In this document: positions 1,424 to 8,055 of the stretch, piece after piece
Layout: every line of letters starts with the position of its first letter
How positions within the stretch are numbered: the stretch's first letter is position 1
Assembly: GCA_937981515.1 (NCBI GenBank)
Contig: CALJNY010000187.1
Location: 1-8,093, forward strand
Length of the DNA stretch: 8,093 nucleotides
Reading direction: 5' to 3'
DNA from: an uncultured Collinsella sp.
Lineage (GTDB): Bacteria; Actinomycetota; Coriobacteriia; Coriobacteriales; Coriobacteriaceae
Program-made: the position numbers and the translations under genes
The notes under the pieces: generated by a model
Databases searched by the model: none
Seen by the model: the letters and a program-made list of their open reading frames with translations, nothing else
What the model was told of the DNA's origin: nothing

Positions 1424-2344
1424 CTATGCCTTCGTGTTGGCGCGCGACAGGTCGCGATGGGAAATGCTCACGTGATATTGGGCACCTTCCAAATAACGTG
1501 CCGTGGCCTCGGCAATGGCAACGCTGCGGTGCTGGCCGCCCGTGCAGCCGATGGCGATAGAAAGCTGCGGCTTGCCCTCCGCGATATAGCCCGGCATCAC
1601 CGTATCGAGCAGCTGTGTCCAAGCCTTCCAAAACTCCTGCGTCTTGGGATGGTCCAGAACAAAATCGGAGACCTTTTTATCGAGACCGGTCATCGTGCGC
1701 ATCTCGGGATCGTAGAACGGATTAGGCAGGAAGCGGACGTCGATCATAATGTCCGCTTCGACGGGCATGCCGTGCTTAAAGCCAAACGAGAACACGTGGA
1801 CGTCCATGAGCTGCTGGTCGGACAGCTCGGAAAATGCCATACGTAGCTTGTTGCGTAGCGCAGAGGTGCGCAGACGGCTCGTGTCGATAATCATATCGGC
1901 TCGGTCGCGCACGCCCTGGAGCTGAAGGCGCTCGCGCTGAATGGCATCGGCCGTAGTCTCCCCCGGCTTGGCAATGGGATGACGGCGGCGATTTTCGCTG
2001 TAGCGACGAATCAGCACCTCGTCAGAAGCCTCCAGGAACACGATGTCGCAGCTCATCTCGCGCTCCTCGAGTGCGGCAACGGCATCGAGCAGCTCATCGA
2101 ACAAGCCCTGGCTGCGCAGGTCACAGGTGACGGCAAGATGCCTGCCCACGCCCGTATTGATGCCGACGAGTTCGGCAAGCTGGGCGATCAGACGTGGAGG
2201 CAAGTTGTCGATGCAAAAATAGCCCATGTCCTCGAACACATGCATGGCCTGCGTTCGGCCCGATCCGGACATTCCGGTGATGATGACGATATCGGGGATG
2301 CGCTCCGAGCGCTCCGCCGCATCCATGGCATCTCCCTTTTGCAT
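1424..2344 (-). CDS. rapZ: RapZ/YvcJ family nucleotide-binding protein
   Basis: This 306-residue protein has the normal length and layout of RapZ (YvcJ). The N-terminal P-loop domain has Walker A GMSGSGRT at 24-31, followed by the family signature FEDMGYFCIDNLPP (37-50) and a Walker-B-like DIVFLEASD (100-108). The C-terminal domain has FGFKHGMP (187-194), DVRFLPNPF (202-210) and GCTGGQHRSV (266-275). The P-loop lysine is arginine (Arg30), which I recall as common in actinobacterial RapZ, so it is not by itself a defect. In E. coli RapZ senses glucosamine-6-phosphate and directs GlmZ decay to set GlmS levels. In Gram-positive bacteria the role is less clear. The chosen ATG has an AGGAGG at 2350-2355, five bases upstream, which favours it over the internal Met7. 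It lies 98 bp downstream of nanE and 6 bp upstream of whiA. The yvcK gene commonly between them is absent. Confidence 0.95.
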   Translation of the reverse strand: MQKGDAMDAAERSERIPDIVIITGMSGSGRTQAMHVFEDMGYFCIDNLPPRLIAQLAELVGINTGVGRHLAVTCDLRSQGLFDELLDAVAALEEREMSCDIVFLEASDEVLIRRYSENRRRHPIAKPGETTADAIQRERLQLQGVRDRADMIIDTSRLRTSALRNKLRMAFSELSDQQLMDVHVFSFGFKHGMPVEADIMIDVRFLPNPFYDPEMRTMTGLDKKVSDFVLDHPKTQEFWKAWTQLLDTVMPGYIAEGKPQLSIAIGCTGGQHRSVAIAEATARYLEGAQYHVSISHRDLSRANTKA

Positions 2345-2362
2345 GTGTGCCTCCTAAAACAA

Positions 2363-2391
2363 GCGCGGGACCCGGCCAGCGGATCCCGCGC
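2363..2391 (-). terminator. GC-rich hairpin with U-rich tail between nanE and rapZ
   Basis: GCGCGGGA (2363-2370) and TCCCGCGC (2384-2391) form a perfect 8-bp stem with a 13-base loop. On the transcribed minus strand the stem is followed by TTGTTTT, so this is the best intrinsic-terminator candidate in the window. It lies about 50 bases after the nanE stop and ends only seven bases before the rapZ Shine-Dalgarno. It may therefore terminate nan transcripts, or act as a leader hairpin limiting read-through into rapZ. Confidence 0.55.
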
Positions 2392-2409
2392 GATCAATTG
2401 CCTTTATTG

Positions 2410-2415
2410 AGTATA
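2410..2415 (-). promoter_or_regulatory. Possible -10 element of a rapZ promoter
   Basis: The minus strand reads TATACT, five of six matches to TATAAT, in the nanE-rapZ gap and upstream of the hairpin at 2363-2391. A start six to seven bases downstream would give a leader of about 60 bases containing that hairpin. There is no recognisable -35 hexamer 16-18 bases upstream, so confidence is low. Confidence 0.3.
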
Positions 2416-2442
2416 CCGCCCCAAGCGGATACGAGGCCTGTC

Positions 2443-3129
2443 TTACGCCTCAAGCGCAGCCTTGAACCAACTTGTAATACTCGTGGGGTGCGTGATGGCG
2501 GTGCCGACGACAACGGCCCAGGCGCCCGCATCAATCGCGGCGCGGGCCTCCTCGGGCGTGTGCACGCGGCCCTCGCAGATGATGGGGAGACCGGGGAATT
2601 CCTCGGTCGCCTGACGCAGGAGCGGCAGATCGGGGCCATCGGCCATGGTGCAGTCGATGGCGGCGACACCGTGAGAAAGCGTGGTGGATACCAGGTCGAA
2701 GCCCATATCAACCGCGCGGCGAATGTCCTCAATGGTGGCACAGTCGGCCATCAGGAGCACACCCTCCTCGTGCAGCGGGCGGAAGGTGTCCTCGACGGTC
2801 TTGCCATCGGGACGTGGGCGATCAGTGGCGTCAATCGCCACGATATCGGCACCCGCAGCAACGCAGGCGCGAGCGTGGCGCAGCGTCGGCGTGATGTAAA
2901 CGCCCTCGTGCCCATCCTTCCACAGGCCGATAACGGGGACCTCGCAGCGGCCCTTAATGGCGGCGATGTCGGCAAGGCCCTGGCAGCGAATGGCGGCGGC
3001 GCCGCCGAGCTCGCAAGCGCGAGACATTTGAGCCATGGTCTCGGGCGTACGAAGCGGCTCGCCCATATACGCCTGAACGCTCACGACGAGCTTGCCCTTC
3101 AGGGATTGAATCAATGGATCGACGGTCAT
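2443..3129 (-). CDS. nanE: N-acetylmannosamine-6-phosphate 2-epimerase NanE
   Basis: NanE converts ManNAc-6-phosphate to GlcNAc-6-phosphate, the last step dedicated to sialic acid breakdown before the Nag enzymes. The 228-residue length is normal for this single-domain TIM-barrel family. Landmarks are SVQAYMGEPL near the N-terminus (17-26), AIRCQG (46-51), GLWK with the expected catalytic Lys71, IDATDRPRP (99-107), STTLS (148-152), the acidic CEGR (185-188) and the phosphate-binding end VVVGTAITHP (206-215). All sit in the order expected for NanE. The ATG is preceded by AGAAAGG about ten bases upstream. The gene is 70 bp downstream of nanK with a hairpin between them, and 98 bp upstream of rapZ. 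Neighbouring nanK and nanA complete the pathway. I see no truncation or missing active-site residue. Confidence 0.93.
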   Translation of the reverse strand: MTVDPLIQSLKGKLVVSVQAYMGEPLRTPETMAQMSRACELGGAAAIRCQGLADIAAIKGRCEVPVIGLWKDGHEGVYITPTLRHARACVAAGADIVAIDATDRPRPDGKTVEDTFRPLHEEGVLLMADCATIEDIRRAVDMGFDLVSTTLSHGVAAIDCTMADGPDLPLLRQATEEFPGLPIICEGRVHTPEEARAAIDAGAWAVVVGTAITHPTSITSWFKAALEA

Positions 3130-3199: not shown

Positions 3200-4165
3200 T
3201 TACTTCAACGAGGCAAGAAGATGCTCAGCGGCACCGATGAGCGGAGCATCGCCCTCCAGAGAACCGATGAGGATCGGCGTGTCCTGAAGCGGATCGAGCG
3301 CCTGGCTGGCATAGCCCTCGTGCACCGAATCCTTCCACGTCTGTGAACGCCAATCGGGACCTTGGTGAATCACGCCACCCGAAAGCACGATGACCTCAGG
3401 GTCCAGGATGTTAGCGAGCGAGCCCAAGCTGGCACCCAGCGCAAAGCCGGCGTCATGGATGACCTCGGTCGCCTTTGCGTCGCCCGCACGGCACAGGTCG
3501 TTCACATCGCGACCGACCGAAGGACGGCTGGGGTCGACGCGGCCAAAACGCTCATCGTACATTCGACCAATGGAAGTGCCCGAAGCAACCGACTCCAGAT
3601 GGCCGGAACGCCCGCAGGCGCAGGGAATGCCGGCGGCAGCCGAGCACTCGATGTGGCCCATATGGCCGGCAGCACCATGGAAGCCCTGCATCACGCGGCC
3701 GTTCTCGACATATGCGCCGCCGATGCCCGTACCGATGCCAAGACACAAGACGGAGAACTTGCCCTTGCCGACGCCCCAGTGGGCCTCGCCCAGAGCATGA
3801 GCCTGCACGTCGCCTACAACGGCAACGGGAAGACCGAGGTCCTCGCGCAGACGCGGCCCCAACTGAACGCCGGACCAGCCGGGCATGATCTCGTTGGCAT
3901 ACGCAATGGCACCCGTCTTGGGATCGACAACGCCGGCGGCACCGATACCGACGCCAAGGACCTCAACATCGGGATTCGCCTCGAGAGCAGCCTTGATGGA
4001 CGCCTCGATACGCTGGAAGACGGCCTCGCCGCCCTCTTGGGCCTCGGTGGGAACCTCGGCCTCAAAAACGGGATGGGGCACACTGCCGTCAGCCGGGTAC
4101 TCCATGATGGCAGTCGCGATCTTAGTTCCGCCGATATCGACAGAGCAGACGTACTTGTTCTCCAT
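3200..4165 (-). CDS. nanK: ROK-family sugar kinase, probable N-acetylmannosamine kinase NanK
   Basis: This 321-residue ROK kinase should phosphorylate ManNAc with ATP to ManNAc-6-phosphate. The N-terminal phosphate loop is DIGGTK (10-15). The presumed catalytic aspartate is Asp119 in VVGDVQAHALGE, where the usual NDANAAALGE is altered but Asp is kept. A second glycine loop is GTGIGG (145-150). The ROK signature region has AGHMGH (166-171), where most glucokinases have an ExGH; E. coli NanK, as I recall it, also has AGHxGH, which favours ManNAc over glucose. The zinc site has His171, Cys182 and Cys184, but the third cysteine of CxCGxxGC is His189 (CACGRSGHLE); Glu191 remains. An AAGGAG Shine-Dalgarno at 4172-4177 lies six bases from the ATG, inside a small CTCCTAAGGAG palindrome. 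The position between nanA and nanE supports NanK. A glucokinase or another ROK kinase is the alternative. Confidence 0.85.
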   Translation of the reverse strand: MENKYVCSVDIGGTKIATAIMEYPADGSVPHPVFEAEVPTEAQEGGEAVFQRIEASIKAALEANPDVEVLGVGIGAAGVVDPKTGAIAYANEIMPGWSGVQLGPRLREDLGLPVAVVGDVQAHALGEAHWGVGKGKFSVLCLGIGTGIGGAYVENGRVMQGFHGAAGHMGHIECSAAAGIPCACGRSGHLESVASGTSIGRMYDERFGRVDPSRPSVGRDVNDLCRAGDAKATEVIHDAGFALGASLGSLANILDPEVIVLSGGVIHQGPDWRSQTWKDSVHEGYASQALDPLQDTPILIGSLEGDAPLIGAAEHLLASLK

Positions 4166-4231: not shown

Positions 4232-4339
4232 TAAAGGTTTCCCGGGTGCCCGAGGTTGGGGTGAAAGCGGTCGGGCGTTGACCTAATGGGTCACGCTCGA
4301 CCGCTTGAGCCCCAAGATCGGGTGCCCGGGGAAGCTTTA
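4232..4339 (-). repeat. Long near-palindrome (two 52-base arms, 4-base loop) between nanA and nanK
   Basis: The arms 4232-4283 and 4288-4339 are imperfect inverted repeats around the loop TAAT. By hand pairing about 41 of 52 positions match. The longest uninterrupted runs are nine pairs (the AAGCGGTCG segment), six (CCCGGG) and six (TTGGGG), and the mismatches fall mostly in small, nearly symmetric internal loops. The outer end of the nanA-proximal arm contains the nanA TAA stop codon, so the RNA structure begins exactly where translation ends. No U-tract follows. Possibilities are an intercistronic processing or stability element, a bidirectional or factor-dependent terminator, or a small non-coding palindromic repeat element that occurs elsewhere in the genome. 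I do not recognise a named RNA family. Confidence 0.75.
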
Positions 4340-5257
4340 CAGGAGACCGTTGTCCTGGAGGACCTTCTTAATCGCCTCGACGTTCTCGCCGGTCATGGCC
4401 TTCACCGGGCGCGGCATGGTCGGGCTGTCGAAGATGCCCATGAGGTTCATAGCGGTCTTGAAGGCGCCGACGCCACCGGCATAGCCCTGGACGCCCGAGG
4501 TGACATCCCAGATGTGCGAAATCTCATTGAGGCGATCCTGCTCGGCCTTGACGGTAGCCCAGTCACCAGCCTGAGCGGCCTTCCACTGACGCACGTAGCC
4601 CTCGGGCTCAACGTTGGCGAGACCCGGGACGGAACCGTCGGCGCCACCGAGGTAGGCGCCGTCGACAACAACCTCGTGACCGGTGAGAATGCTCATCGGA
4701 TGGCCGTTCTTCTCGTTCTCCTGAACGAGGTAGCGGAACGAGATGTCATCACCCGAGGAATCCTTGACGCCGGCCAGAACGCCCTCGGCGCCGAGCTTGG
4801 CAAGGAGCTTCCAGGGGAGCTTGGTGTGGACGCAGACGGGAATGTCATAGGCAAAGATGGGCAGGTCGAGCTCCTCGTGCAGGATGCGGAAGTGCTCCTC
4901 AACCTCGGTCATGCCCTGCAGGGCATAGAACGGGCAGGTGGCGACAAGCGCATCGGCGCCCAGCTCCTGAGCGACCTTGCCGTGCTCGATCATGCGCTCG
5001 GTCTCGGTGTCGATGATGCCGACCAGAACGGGAACACGGTGGTCGACGATACGAACGGCCTCGGCGATAATCTGGCGACGGCGCTCGTCGGTGGAGAAGA
5101 CGACCTCGCCCGAGGAGCCCAGGAAGAACAGGCCATCGACGCCGGCATCGATCATGCGGTTGATGCTGCGCTCAAAGGAGGCAACATCGAGCTGGTGGTC
5201 TTCGGTATCGGGAACAACGACGGGAGGGATAACGCCGGTGAATTTCTGAGTTGCCAC
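4337..5257 (-). CDS. nanA: N-acetylneuraminate lyase (DHDPS/NAL superfamily aldolase)
   Basis: NanA cleaves N-acetylneuraminate to ManNAc and pyruvate through a Schiff base. I chose the GTG at 5257, giving 306 residues, because AAGGAG (5264-5269) lies six bases upstream. The reading frame is open further up to an ATG at 5341, but that start would overlap the preceding gene and add 28 residues unlike the family. Numbered from the GTG, the pyruvate-binding loop is GSSGE (47-51), the catalytic tyrosine is Tyr137 in FAYDIP, and the Schiff-base lysine is Lys165 in AGVKDSSGD. These are the positions these residues hold in E. coli NanA. A later glycine-rich segment is GGADGSVPG (204-212). The arginine that DapA uses for the substrate carboxylate, just after the YxxP motif, is absent. 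The nanK and nanE neighbours support the lyase role. Another pyruvate-dependent aldolase of this superfamily remains possible. Confidence 0.82.
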   Translation of the reverse strand: MATQKFTGVIPPVVVPDTEDHQLDVASFERSINRMIDAGVDGLFFLGSSGEVVFSTDERRRQIIAEAVRIVDHRVPVLVGIIDTETERMIEHGKVAQELGADALVATCPFYALQGMTEVEEHFRILHEELDLPIFAYDIPVCVHTKLPWKLLAKLGAEGVLAGVKDSSGDDISFRYLVQENEKNGHPMSILTGHEVVVDGAYLGGADGSVPGLANVEPEGYVRQWKAAQAGDWATVKAEQDRLNEISHIWDVTSGVQGYAGGVGAFKTAMNLMGIFDSPTMPRPVKAMTGENVEAIKKVLQDNGLL

Positions 5258-5277
5258 AAGAATCTCCTTAGTTGTCT

Positions 5278-5298
5278 GGCGGGCAGCCCTATGCCGCC
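5278..5298 (-). repeat. Short GC-rich hairpin upstream of nanA
   Basis: GGCGGGCA (5278-5285) can pair with TGCCGCC (5292-5298), giving seven base pairs with one bulged base and a six-base loop. It sits in the 68-base gap between the degenerate esterase paralogue and the nanA Shine-Dalgarno. No U-tract follows on the transcribed strand. It matches the pattern of a hairpin at each junction in this cluster. Confidence 0.4.
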
Positions 5299-5325
5299 CA
5301 CTCTTGTTGGCAGTGTCCAGGCCGT

Positions 5326-6177
5326 CTAGGCCAAAGAACACGGGTAGAACGTTTGGTTAAAGAAGTCGACGACTTCGTTTTCGAACGCATTGATGCGCTC
5401 GTGAGCGTATTTTGCATAGATGATATGCCTCCGGTCACACTCAAGACCGTTGAATACGGCAGACTGATCCTTGGGATCGCTCACGGTATCCATAAGCGAT
5501 GTGCCCATGAGCACCGATCCGCGCACCCGAGACGACAGCGCCTCGAGGCCGCCAGGAAGCGGGTTGGCAACCGCCGTGCAGGCGAGGCCCCGCTCGTCCA
5601 GAGCAGAAACCGCCAGCGCGACTCCGCCGCCAAGACCCTCGCCCCATGCAAAGATGCGGTCGGGGTCCATGCCATCAAGATTGCGCGCCACCTTCGCCAG
5701 CGCGCAACCCCAACGGACGCGCCTGACAAAAGCAGGCGAAGTAATCCCCTGCCGCAGATCGCTGGGTCCAATCACCTCATCGTCCAGTGCAAGCACGGCA
5801 TACCCCATGGCGGCAAATCTCGTCATGTGATGCCAGCCGCGCACAGGCCGATCGATGTCGTGGAACATCAGGCACAGCGGCACGCGCTCAGATACTCGGG
5901 CACGACCGACAGGCTCGATCAAACGAGCGTGAATCGCATCGTCACCGAGCTCAAAGGAGACCTCCGAGTAACGGGCGCAGGGGTTAACAAAGTCAATCGC
6001 CGTAATGGCCAGGCCTTGAATCTCAAGATTCGAAGCGCATGTCTCTAAATCAGAAACATCTGCTTGGACATCACCGCGCCAGTCCCGATATTCTGCGAGC
6101 CTTGACGAAACCGTTCCAGGAATTCCCACGAGCCCGGGGACAATCAGCTCGTCAACATTGCTCTCGCACTTAGACAT
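5326..6177 (-). CDS. Degenerate acetyl-xylan-esterase-like alpha/beta-hydrolase, predicted catalytically inactive
   Basis: This 283-residue protein is a diverged paralogue of the esterase encoded just before it. The two align through the core: LMFHDIDRP against LQFHGYPG, RIFAWGEGLGGG against RVFVNGASQGGG, and MGTSLMDTVSDP against FGTGTADIVCPP. At the nucleophile elbow the serine is replaced by glycine (Gly181 in GEGLGG). The oxyanion-side HG becomes HD (106-107), and the DCPGQGG loop becomes DDEVIGP. The acid Asp230 and His259 (YAHE) appear kept. About 45 residues between the strand after the elbow and the aspartate, corresponding to the cap and assembly region of this family, are missing. 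No signal peptide is seen, so it is cytoplasmic. It overlaps the upstream gene by 8 bp (ATGTCTAA) and has a good Shine-Dalgarno (6181-6192), so it is co-translated. The frame is intact, which suggests a retained binding or partner role rather than simple decay. The function is unknown. Confidence 0.8.
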   Translation of the reverse strand: MSKCESNVDELIVPGLVGIPGTVSSRLAEYRDWRGDVQADVSDLETCASNLEIQGLAITAIDFVNPCARYSEVSFELGDDAIHARLIEPVGRARVSERVPLCLMFHDIDRPVRGWHHMTRFAAMGYAVLALDDEVIGPSDLRQGITSPAFVRRVRWGCALAKVARNLDGMDPDRIFAWGEGLGGGVALAVSALDERGLACTAVANPLPGGLEALSSRVRGSVLMGTSLMDTVSDPKDQSAVFNGLECDRRHIIYAKYAHERINAFENEVVDFFNQTFYPCSLA

Positions 6178-7147
6178 GAGCCTCCCCTCCCTTGCAGAAA
6201 AACGGAATGATCAAATCGTCAAAATCCTGAATCTCCTCGTGGCCAAAGCCTTCAAAGAACTCATGACGCTTTTCGCAGGTCAGGTTGTTATAGACCGCAA
6301 ACTGCGTCGCTGGCGGACAGACGATATCGGCTGTGCCAGTGCCAAACAGCACGGGGCATTTGACCATAGGGGCAAAGTTCTTGGAATCGAAGTACGCCAG
6401 CTTGGCATAGGCTTCGTCAATACGAGTCGAGTCCTCGTCAAACCAGCGAGACCAATAGCGCAGGCCCTCGTAGGCAATGTCGTCGGCATCCAAATCCCAG
6501 ACCAGGTGGAAATCTGACAGGAAGGGATAGAGGATGGCGGCACGATTGATAAGCTCGCTGTTAAGCGCACAGGTCGCAATGCCCAAACCGCCGCCCTGCG
6601 ACGCGCCGTTCACAAACACACGCGCAAGATCGATGCCCTCGAGCTCGCGAACGATGCGGCACAGGATGCGAATATCTTGGTGCAAGCGGACATAGTAGAG
6701 GTTGGCCGGGTCGCCGTCGATACCGGCGACGATATGACCGGCAACCGTTGTGCCCTCAAATCCACCAATGTCCTCGGAGGGACCTCCTTGGCCGGGGCAG
6801 TCGAGGGCGATGAGTGCCATGCCCATGCCCGCAAACGACGCCTGCTCAAACCAGCTGCGGCTTGCACCCGGATACCCATGGAACTGAAGTACCAATGGCA
6901 CGGGCTCGTCCGAGACGGGTTTAAGGTACTTGGCATGCAGGCGCGCGCCACACATGCCGGTATACCAGAGGTCGAAAAGCTGGCAGGTCGCGGCATCGGC
7001 GACCGATGCCGTCTCGATCGCATAGTCAAGCCCGACGGCGTCGGCCTCGGCCATGCGATCCTTCCAAAAGAGATCGAAATCTGATGGACGGGGCATGGCG
7101 CCTCGATATTCACCAAATTGATGTTGTAGCTCCTGAGCACTTGGCAT
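6170..7147 (-). CDS. Acetyl xylan esterase family (carbohydrate esterase family 7-like) deacetylase
   Basis: This 325-residue alpha/beta-hydrolase belongs to the acetyl xylan esterase / cephalosporin-C deacetylase family, whose members remove acetyl groups from small sugars and oligosaccharides in the cytoplasm. The family start is recognisable (PRPSDFDLFW, 19-28). An HG oxyanion motif lies at 90-91, DCPGQGG at 116-122, nucleophile Ser183 in GASQGG (181-186), acid Asp274 in GTADIVCPP, and His303 in FGHEE. The length is normal. I chose the ATG at 7147, which fits the family N-terminus; a TTG at 7162 is possible, but AAAGG abuts it too closely. No signal peptide is present. The gene overlaps its degenerate paralogue by 8 bp and lies upstream of nanA, nanK and nanE. 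I infer that it may de-O-acetylate imported sialic acids. A role on xylo-oligosaccharides or other acetylated glycans cannot be excluded from sequence. Confidence 0.88.
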   Translation of the reverse strand: MPSAQELQHQFGEYRGAMPRPSDFDLFWKDRMAEADAVGLDYAIETASVADAATCQLFDLWYTGMCGARLHAKYLKPVSDEPVPLVLQFHGYPGASRSWFEQASFAGMGMALIALDCPGQGGPSEDIGGFEGTTVAGHIVAGIDGDPANLYYVRLHQDIRILCRIVRELEGIDLARVFVNGASQGGGLGIATCALNSELINRAAILYPFLSDFHLVWDLDADDIAYEGLRYWSRWFDEDSTRIDEAYAKLAYFDSKNFAPMVKCPVLFGTGTADIVCPPATQFAVYNNLTCEKRHEFFEGFGHEEIQDFDDLIIPFFCKGGEAHV

Positions 7148-7227: not shown

Positions 7228-8055
7228 CTATTCGCCGAGCTTGGGGTGCAGCAGCGACGGCGCAGCGCCGAGCAGCATCTTGGTGTAGGGGTCCTGGGGG
7301 TGCTGGAAGACCTGCTTGGCCTCGCCCTGCTCGACGATCTTGCCGCCATTCATAACGATGATGTCGTCAGAGATATAGCGGACCGTCTGGATGTCATGGC
7401 TGATGAACACCATGGCCAGGCCGAGCTCCTTCTTAAGGTCGGTCAGCAGGTTCAGAATCTGCGCGCGGACCGAAACGTCCAGAGCCGAGGTGGGCTCGTC
7501 GGCGATGATGGCATCGGGGTTCAACGACAGGGCACGGGCAATTGCGACGCGCTGGCGCTGGCCGCCCGAAAGCTGACCGGGAAGAACCTCGGCGGCGGAG
7601 CTGGGCAGACCGGTGAGCTCCAGGAGCTCCTTGACGCGCTTCTCCTGCTCTGCCTCGGTGCCCAGATTGTGGACGCGCATGGGATCGAGCAGTTGCTCGC
7701 GAACGACCATGCGCGGGTTGAGCGCCGTGGCCGGGTTTTGGAACACGACCGAGATGACGCGACCCATGTGACGACGGTCCTCGGCGGTACGCTTGGTAAC
7801 GTCCTTGCCCTTAAAGTAGACCTTGCCGCTCGTGGGGGCCTGCAGGCCGCACATGACGTTGGCGGTGGTGGACTTGCCGCAACCGGACTCGCCGACGATG
7901 CCGATCGTCTGGCCGGGCATGAGCTTAATCGTTACACCCTGGACGGCGTGGACCAGGTTGGGGTGCAGAATCGAACCGGTACGGGTCCTAAAGGTGACGT
8001 GGACGTCATCAAGGAAGATGATCGGCTCGACGCCGTTGACTGCGGTCTCGCTAAT
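7228..8055 (-). CDS. Oligopeptide/dipeptide-type ABC transporter ATP-binding protein (OppF/DppF family)
   Basis: This is the ATPase subunit of a peptide/nickel-type ABC importer. Counting from an ATT start at 8055 it has 275 residues. Walker A is GESGCGKS (55-62), the Q-loop is Gln106 in VFQNPATALNPRM, the signature is LSGGQ (162-166), Walker B ends in Asp186-Glu187 (ADEP), the D-loop is SALD (190-193) and the switch histidine is His220 (ISHD). The first in-frame ATG is at 7920, but starting there would remove 45 residues (EPIIFLDDVHVTFRT and onward) that form the first strands of this ATPase family. No ATG, GTG or TTG occurs between 8055 and 7920, so ATT is the likely start. The protein ends soon after HPQDPYTKMLL and lacks the cysteine-bearing oligo_HPY tail of longer OppF proteins. 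The partner permeases and binding protein are not in the window. Peptide, nickel or, by context, sialic acid are possible substrates. Confidence 0.85.
   Translation of the reverse strand: MSETAVNGVEPIIFLDDVHVTFRTRTGSILHPNLVHAVQGVTIKLMPGQTIGIVGESGCGKSTTANVMCGLQAPTSGKVYFKGKDVTKRTAEDRRHMGRVISVVFQNPATALNPRMVVREQLLDPMRVHNLGTEAEQEKRVKELLELTGLPSSAAEVLPGQLSGGQRQRVAIARALSLNPDAIIADEPTSALDVSVRAQILNLLTDLKKELGLAMVFISHDIQTVRYISDDIIVMNGGKIVEQGEAKQVFQHPQDPYTKMLLGAAPSLLHPKLGE

Follow-up and report, generated by a model that had tools for sequence, protein, structure and literature searches.

The 8,093-nt stretch of DNA analysed here (the window), from an uncultured Collinsella sp., carries two adjacent genes of the AXE1/CE7 family: E1 (6170..7147, minus strand; 325 aa when counted from an ATG at 7147), an esterase with an intact Ser-Asp-His triad, and E2 (5326..6177, minus strand; 283 aa, ATG start), a pseudoenzyme with glycine where the catalytic serine would be expected. 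The preliminary description had taken E2 for a pseudoenzyme that is maintained and whose gene is coupled to that of an intact paralogue, and residue conservation, dN/dS values and the pairing of the two genes across genomes support this. Since the intact and the dead copy are neighbours and are sometimes fused, E2 is likely to be a built-in partner of E1; our main reading, to which we give a probability of roughly two in three, is that E2 is a non-catalytic subunit which binds E1 one to one and would tune the de-O-acetylation of imported sialic acid.

The minus strand carries every gene treated here as well as the codons given below, the gene order being ABC ATPase, E1, E2, NanA-like lyase, ROK kinase, NanE. 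The ATP-binding subunit of a Dpp/Sat-type importer, assigned from Pfam and from its relatives, occupies 7228..7920 counted from its first listed start, the start in the Collinsella relatives being located 45 residues further upstream. On the other side of the pair there are a NanA-like lyase of the DHDPS family (4337..5257; Pfam), a ROK-family kinase (3200..4165; Pfam) with a putative NanK role, and NanE, a putative N-acetylmannosamine-6-phosphate 2-epimerase (2443..3129; NCBIfam NF002231, 264 bits against a cut-off of 189); the frames beyond NanE are those we take to be RapZ, WhiA and GapA. The lyase gene likely starts with the GTG at 5257, judging from the AAGGAG just before it, and a 347-aa open frame antisense to it (4286-5329, plus strand) is probably a shadow frame arising from coding DNA of high GC content, with no sign of being a gene. 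E1 ends at 6170 and E2 starts at 6177, which confirms the 8-bp overlap noted earlier (6170..6177), and the Shine-Dalgarno sequence reported for E2 corresponds to the purine-rich, Shine-Dalgarno-like AAGGGAGGGGAGG situated within E1 immediately 5′ of the E2 ATG (6181..6193). The residue numbers of the E1 triad, Ser183, Asp274 and His303, agree with the ATG at 7147.

Both proteins belong to the family of the CE7 acetyl xylan esterases and cephalosporin C deacetylases (3fcy, 6fkx, 1l7a, 6agq; PF05448), as had been proposed: against the Pfam AXE1 profile E1 scores 278 bits and E2 84.1 bits (gathering cut-off, 21 bits), E1 matches 3fcy with an E-value of 7.6e-72 in a search of solved-structure sequences, and the two proteins align with each other at 27% identity over 252 columns (BLASTP E-value 1e-22), far beyond chance. 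Pfam accordingly files E2 as another acetyl xylan esterase, and a CE7 α/β-hydrolase fold is predicted for it by modelling. The CE7 enzymes described so far mostly form homo-hexamers and use a Ser-His-Asp triad (PMC6209228), whereas E2 has neither the serine nor the oxyanion glycine, its assembly elements are altered, and it occupies a second gene or domain of its own.

The active-site motifs were compared in a joint alignment of 33 E1 sequences, 33 diverged E2 sequences (26 from separate pairs and 7 of 41 fusions described below) and 16 outgroup AXE1 proteins, and in a wider set of 217 E2-type sequences consisting of 120 near copies (P0001-P0120) and 97 others, some of which are also from Collinsella. 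The nucleophile elbow is GASQGG in E1 (Ser183, codon 6599..6601) and GEGLGG in E2, where Glu180 (codon 5638..5640) precedes Gly181 (codon 5635..5637), the residue aligned with Ser183. The nucleophilic serine of GxSQGG is present in 33/33 E1 and 16/16 outgroup rows, and all 217 E2-type rows have glycine there; serine, named beforehand as the residue that would speak against a pseudoenzyme, was found at position 181 in none of them. The oxyanion motif HG of E1 is HD in E2, with Asp107 (codon 5857..5859) in 33/33 diverged E2 rows against glycine in 33/33 E1 rows. Of the former triad E2 retains Asp230 (codon 5488..5490) and His259, the latter being part of a HERxNxFE motif (His259-Glu260-Arg261, codons 5395..5403). 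The alignment thus bears out the motif changes and the retained residues described for E2 as well as the triad described for E1, which is invariant in 33/33 E1 rows and, together with the AXE1 score, makes E1 a regular CE7 member. In sequence terms, E2 is a catalytically disabled paralogue of an intact E1, and both were found in 46/46 matching genomes of the order sample.

The neighbouring genes place the pair in a sialic acid context, which we consider well supported by two matches to solved structures. The solute-binding protein encoded 5′ of E1 in the relative L001 matches PDB 5z99 with an E-value of 1e-91, 5z99 being SatA, the sialic acid binding protein of Haemophilus ducreyi (PMC10017367), and the best solved relative of the window lyase is 5c54 (E-value 3e-71), named as a DHDPS/N-acetylneuraminate lyase. 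With the NanA-, ROK- and NanE-family genes located 3′ of E2 in the window, the assignment to a sialic acid operon made in the preliminary description holds, and the families known from SatABCD/nan loci, namely a SatA-like binding protein, Dpp-type ABC subunits, NanA, a kinase and NanE, are likewise found near E1 and E2. Two further features of the neighbourhood were observed. The transporter frame at L089:2344-4359 codes for a permease and an ATPase in one 671-aa protein (BPD_transp_1 and ABC_tran), matching frames in diverged relatives being similar in length or longer; and the RapZ-type frame that lies 3′ of NanE in the window (stretch 1424-3129) has a relative in the corresponding place in L062, L063, L067, L071, L073, L074, L077, L078, L082, L083 and L085-L089. 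RapZ-type proteins are known as sensors of glucosamine-6-phosphate, which is formed late in the sialic acid pathway, so this neighbourhood may be regulatory.

From this context and from family precedent E1 is likely to be an esterase acting on O-acetylated sialic acid. The precedent for such chemistry in an acetyl xylan esterase-type enzyme is pneumococcal Axe, likened to E1 here by its described chemistry, which frees acetate from bovine submaxillary mucin while its S181A form does not, although deletion of axe did not impair the growth of S. pneumoniae on mucin (PMC5352144). Unlike in the case of E1 and E2, the cited passages of that source make no mention of a dead partner. The sialate O-acetylesterases NanS, EstA and others are not described as CE7 enzymes, nor presented as pairs of an intact and a dead copy, in the cited part of PMC10017367.

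The distribution of the two genes was followed through samples of the order (which we take to be Coriobacteriales), the class and the phylum. In the order sample (297 genomes) the E2 query matched 46 and the E1 query matched the identical 46, with E2 adjoining E1 or fused to it in all of them (21 established by hit coordinates and 25 by reading the region); none of these 46 matching genomes has E1 without E2 or E2 without E1. Within the genus the pair is present in 22/43 genomes and missing in 21/43. The E2 of the window is 85–96% identical to its counterparts at 19 loci in C. aerofaciens and further Collinsella, and the 21 close Collinsella relatives among the 46 have a full-length E2 match at 85–95% with E1 directly before it. 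Regions were read for the 25 of the 46 genomes that lie outside the close Collinsella relatives, plus four close relatives. All 25 diverged regions have the order ABC, ABC, E1, E2 and NanA-, NanK- and NanE-type genes, with E2 as a separate gene in 24 of them and fused to E1 in L063 alone. In 18 of the 24 separate pairs the two genes share 1 to 8 bp or are separated by 2 or 6 bp; the remaining six (L069, L070, L073, L077, L084, L085) overlap by 11 to 65 bp, and L002, L010 and L087 by 26 bp, values that may be too large because they were counted from the first possible start codons.

Beyond the order, 52 of 396 genomes of the class sample matched, adding seven new genomes, five with fused genes (one cut at the contig end), one with separate genes and one in which the pair is split by contig ends. 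In the phylum sample 36 of 396 genomes matched, six of them being E1/E2 genomes; of the other 30, 19 were inspected, and 18 of these proved to have an AXE1 protein with GxSQGG while one yielded no protein. Apparent internal stops in G219 (E2) and G019 (E1) were dismissed, as the matches ran beyond the genes' own stop codons and the frames are intact. Taken together, the sequence comparisons indicate that the pairing of E1 and E2 is old and no oddity of Collinsella.

In the phylogenetic tree, which includes the 16 outgroup AXE1 proteins, the 33 E1 rows are split off by one branch (support 99/97) and the 33 E2 rows likewise (100/99), both branches being recovered in 200/200 bootstrap trees. Because E1 and E2 form two clades, a single duplication and a single loss of the serine before the group spread suffice to explain them. 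Pairwise distances in E1 and E2 are correlated (r 0.76, a value reached in 0/5000 permutations), although this correlation, like adjacency and co-occurrence, would also arise between any two genes that are passed on within one operon. For the seven fusions of 41 that were placed on the tree, the fused state requires two changes in each of the E1 and E2 subtrees, meaning either two fusions or one fusion and one split.

The mean distances among E2 sequences are 2.9 times those among E1 sequences, which is what would be seen if E2 were a decaying relic still awaiting loss. Several observations make such a relic very improbable. In 20 Collinsella sequences analysed by NG86 (186 E2 pairs and 179 E1 pairs), the median dN/dS is 0.176 for E2, with a maximum of 0.403, and 0.049 for E1; E2 is under purifying selection, and relaxed selection, named earlier as a result that would count against a maintained gene, was not found, the ratio being well under 1. 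The 20 Collinsella copies have no internal stop, in keeping with the intact frame reported for the window, and Gly181 is encoded by both GGC and GGT within Collinsella while the glycine itself is conserved in 217/217 rows. Moreover, E2 accompanies E1 in each of the 46 genomes of the order sample that have E1, and its fusion to E1 either occurred more than once or is accompanied by a split. A recent pseudogene is ruled out by the dN/dS of 0.176 together with the conservation of Gly181.

What is conserved in E2 differs from what is conserved in E1. The joint alignment has 189 columns with residues in 30 or more rows of both E1 and E2. In it, 66 columns are invariant in the 33 E1 rows versus 10 in the 33 E2 rows, and at five of these 10 the E2 residue differs from one conserved in 31 to 33 of the 33 E1 rows (E2/E1: D107/G91, R120/S104, G181/S183, R261/E305, E266/D310), two of the five being located at the nucleophile and oxyanion places. 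Three further swaps are nearly fixed (H117/E101, N205/Y207, N263/Q307). Arg261 is present in 33/33 E2 rows where Glu305 is found in 32/33 E1 rows. The wider set of 217 rows gives the same picture, with Glu260 in 217, Arg261 and Glu266 in 216 each, Asp107 in 213, and Glu180 in 212 (Asp in 4, Val in 1). From family knowledge we take D107, E180-G181 and H259-R261 to be the oxyanion, nucleophile and catalytic-histidine motifs, so that the conserved E2 set surrounds the former active site. The leftover triad is kept less strictly, with Asp in 28/33 diverged rows (211/217 in the wider set) and His in 30/33, which rules out an Asp/His dyad as a device conserved throughout E2: in L079, L080 and L084 the old Asp is replaced by Gly and the His by Tyr, while Gly181, Arg261 and Glu266 are kept. 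An aspartate elbow as in dehalogenases was also rejected, the GRDMGG seen in two genomes lying in an N-terminal overhang and the aligned elbow there being GEGLAG.

The presence of acidic and basic residues fixed at the old active-site motifs (D107, R261 and E266 in 33/33 rows) would suit an enzyme of new chemistry working through Asp107, Glu180, Arg261 and Glu266, for example in acetyl migration, lactone opening or sialic acid mutarotation, and no mutarotase for this pathway was detected among the six window proteins scanned with Pfam. Against it, both the nucleophile and the oxyanion positions are replaced and the leftover Asp and His are not kept throughout, and we consider such an enzyme unlikely. 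The same invariant, E2-specific residues on or near the former active-site motifs could instead belong to a free-standing protein, derived from an esterase, that senses or carries sialate without binding E1 and whose pairing with E1 reflects nothing more than the shared pathway. Arg113 of E2 (32/33 rows) is in common with R97 of E1 (33/33) and is absent from the 16 outgroup rows, 3fcy having Gly at this place; Arg113/R97 could bind the sialate carboxylate in E2 and E1 alike, and for a free-standing binder it might be an ancestral sialate-binding feature that was kept. The neighbouring Trp115, on the other hand, is no special mark of a binder and says less than Arg113, because it is common to E2, E1 and 3fcy. 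The charge swaps E101 to H117 and E305 to R261, as read from the alignment, would fit either a contact with E1 or a new anion pocket, and the glycine of the E2 elbow may be kept only for backbone reasons, the elbow being strained.

The CE7 hexamer is assembled via an N-terminal extension, a three-helix insertion and a β-interface loop (PMC6209228), and all three were measured between anchor columns of the alignment. In the window, the three-helix insertion has 11 residues in E2 versus 53 in E1, the β-interface loop 25 versus 43 and the N-terminal extension 56 versus 62, so two of the three elements are cut and E2 does not have the complete set of a CE7 enzyme. In E1 the insertion (53 residues) and the loop (43 residues) are constant in 33/33 rows. 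In E2 the loop is shorter in 25/33 rows and equal or longer in 8/33, and the insertion is full in 14, trimmed to 39–40 residues in 5 and cut to 7–20 in 14, including the window. In L065, L068, L072, L077, L078, L082, L083 and L085 the loop of E2 is replaced by 43 to 79 residues of different sequence. The cap deletion in the preliminary description is therefore real for the window (11 versus 53) but does not extend to E2 in general, being strong in 14/33 rows only. As it is absent in another 14/33, it was rejected as the cause or the definition of the pseudoenzyme; the serine is missing in every E2 examined, so its loss and the deletion are separate events, and the strong deletion is a lineage-bound change. 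With its assembly elements lost or rebuilt, E2 should be unable simply to replace a CE7 subunit via the known β-interface.

In L063 E1 and E2 are encoded in one 508-aa frame, and 40 further E1-E2 fusion proteins of 487–578 aa were found among the best 120 of 504 matches to a fused-protein query, making at least 41 distinct natural fusions among the matches listed (the other protein searches covered the best 120 of 334 and the best 120 of 248 matches). Their first halves have GASQGG in 38 cases, GASQG followed by another residue in two and GGSQGG in one, and their second halves have Gly at the nucleophile place in 41/41; in P0186 the stretch around the oxyanion loop is missing. One fusion is labelled “acetylxylan esterase, Atopobiaceae bacterium” (a MAG name). 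Another, P0122, carries the MAG name Oscillospiraceae bacterium, and its position inside the E1/E2 tree suggests misbinning or transfer. In the seven aligned fusions the place of the E2 N-terminal extension holds 9 to 33 residues, a figure affected by the cut point between E1 and E2 that we set, compared to 41 to 65 in separate E2 proteins, and the three-helix insertion of the E2 half has 7 to 12 residues. In these seven the E2 half amounts to a core that lacks most of the N-terminal extension and of the insertion, which further argues against new chemistry.

The fusion P0121, modelled by AlphaFold2 with the 41 natural fusions, gave a mean pLDDT of 91.9 and a pTM of 0.91. For domains of about 314 and 194 residues this pTM points, from the score itself, to a confident relative placement and exceeds what we would expect from the model if the two domains were not packed together, although the covalent linker can help packing. 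In comparison with the PDB, the listed matches are single chains filling at most about 0.58 of the model by TM-score. The natural fusions, the confident packing and the count of 0/46 genomes with E2 but no E1 all weigh against a free-standing binder, which we regard as improbable, even though fusion may serve equal dosage instead of contact. Of the three functions offered for E2 in the preliminary description, that of a partner of E1 is favoured by co-occurrence, by the fusions and by the fusion model; ligand binding is compatible with it, and new chemistry keeps a small probability.

As a subunit of E1, E2 would act as follows. O-acetylated sialic acid would be imported by the SatA-like/Dpp-type transporter and its O-acetyl groups removed by E1, to which the dead half would bind one to one, stabilizing, activating or gating it. 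The unfused proteins would form the same 1:1 unit as the fusion, and the remodelled pocket (Asp107, Arg113, Trp115, Glu180, Arg261, Glu266) may bind sialate or form salt bridges to E1. A fuller version, put forward tentatively and at less than even odds, is a two-subunit sialate O-acetylesterase around Collinsella in which an ancestral dead, sialate-binding prozyme half gates its active twin in response to the pathway's own ligand and was later fused to that twin.

The closest parallel in principle is provided by the trypanosome prozymes of AdoMetDC and deoxyhypusine synthase, dead paralogues that bind and activate the active one (PMC5201418, PMC3663545). They differ from E1/E2 in that the enzymes and organisms are unrelated and that activation is only proposed here, while natural fusions of the dead and intact copies exist for E1/E2. 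No earlier description of an intact/dead CE7 esterase pair was found in the open-access PMC literature. Replacement of the serine by glycine in an α/β-hydrolase fold is familiar from neuroligins and other cholinesterase-like adhesion proteins, which are binding proteins, but these are eukaryotic cell-surface proteins of another hydrolase family than E2 and, to our knowledge, have no intact twin alongside.

The fixed signature of E2, its intact and invariant partner and the many fusions amount to dozens of sequence experiments at once. They offer E2 as a clean case of an enzyme copy turned into a subunit, with the serine and the oxyanion glycine lost first, the cap and assembly elements later, and with fusion in some lineages. 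If this is confirmed, CE7 esterases would exist beyond homo-oligomers, and Collinsella and its relatives would need a dead twin for the de-O-acetylation of host sialic acid.
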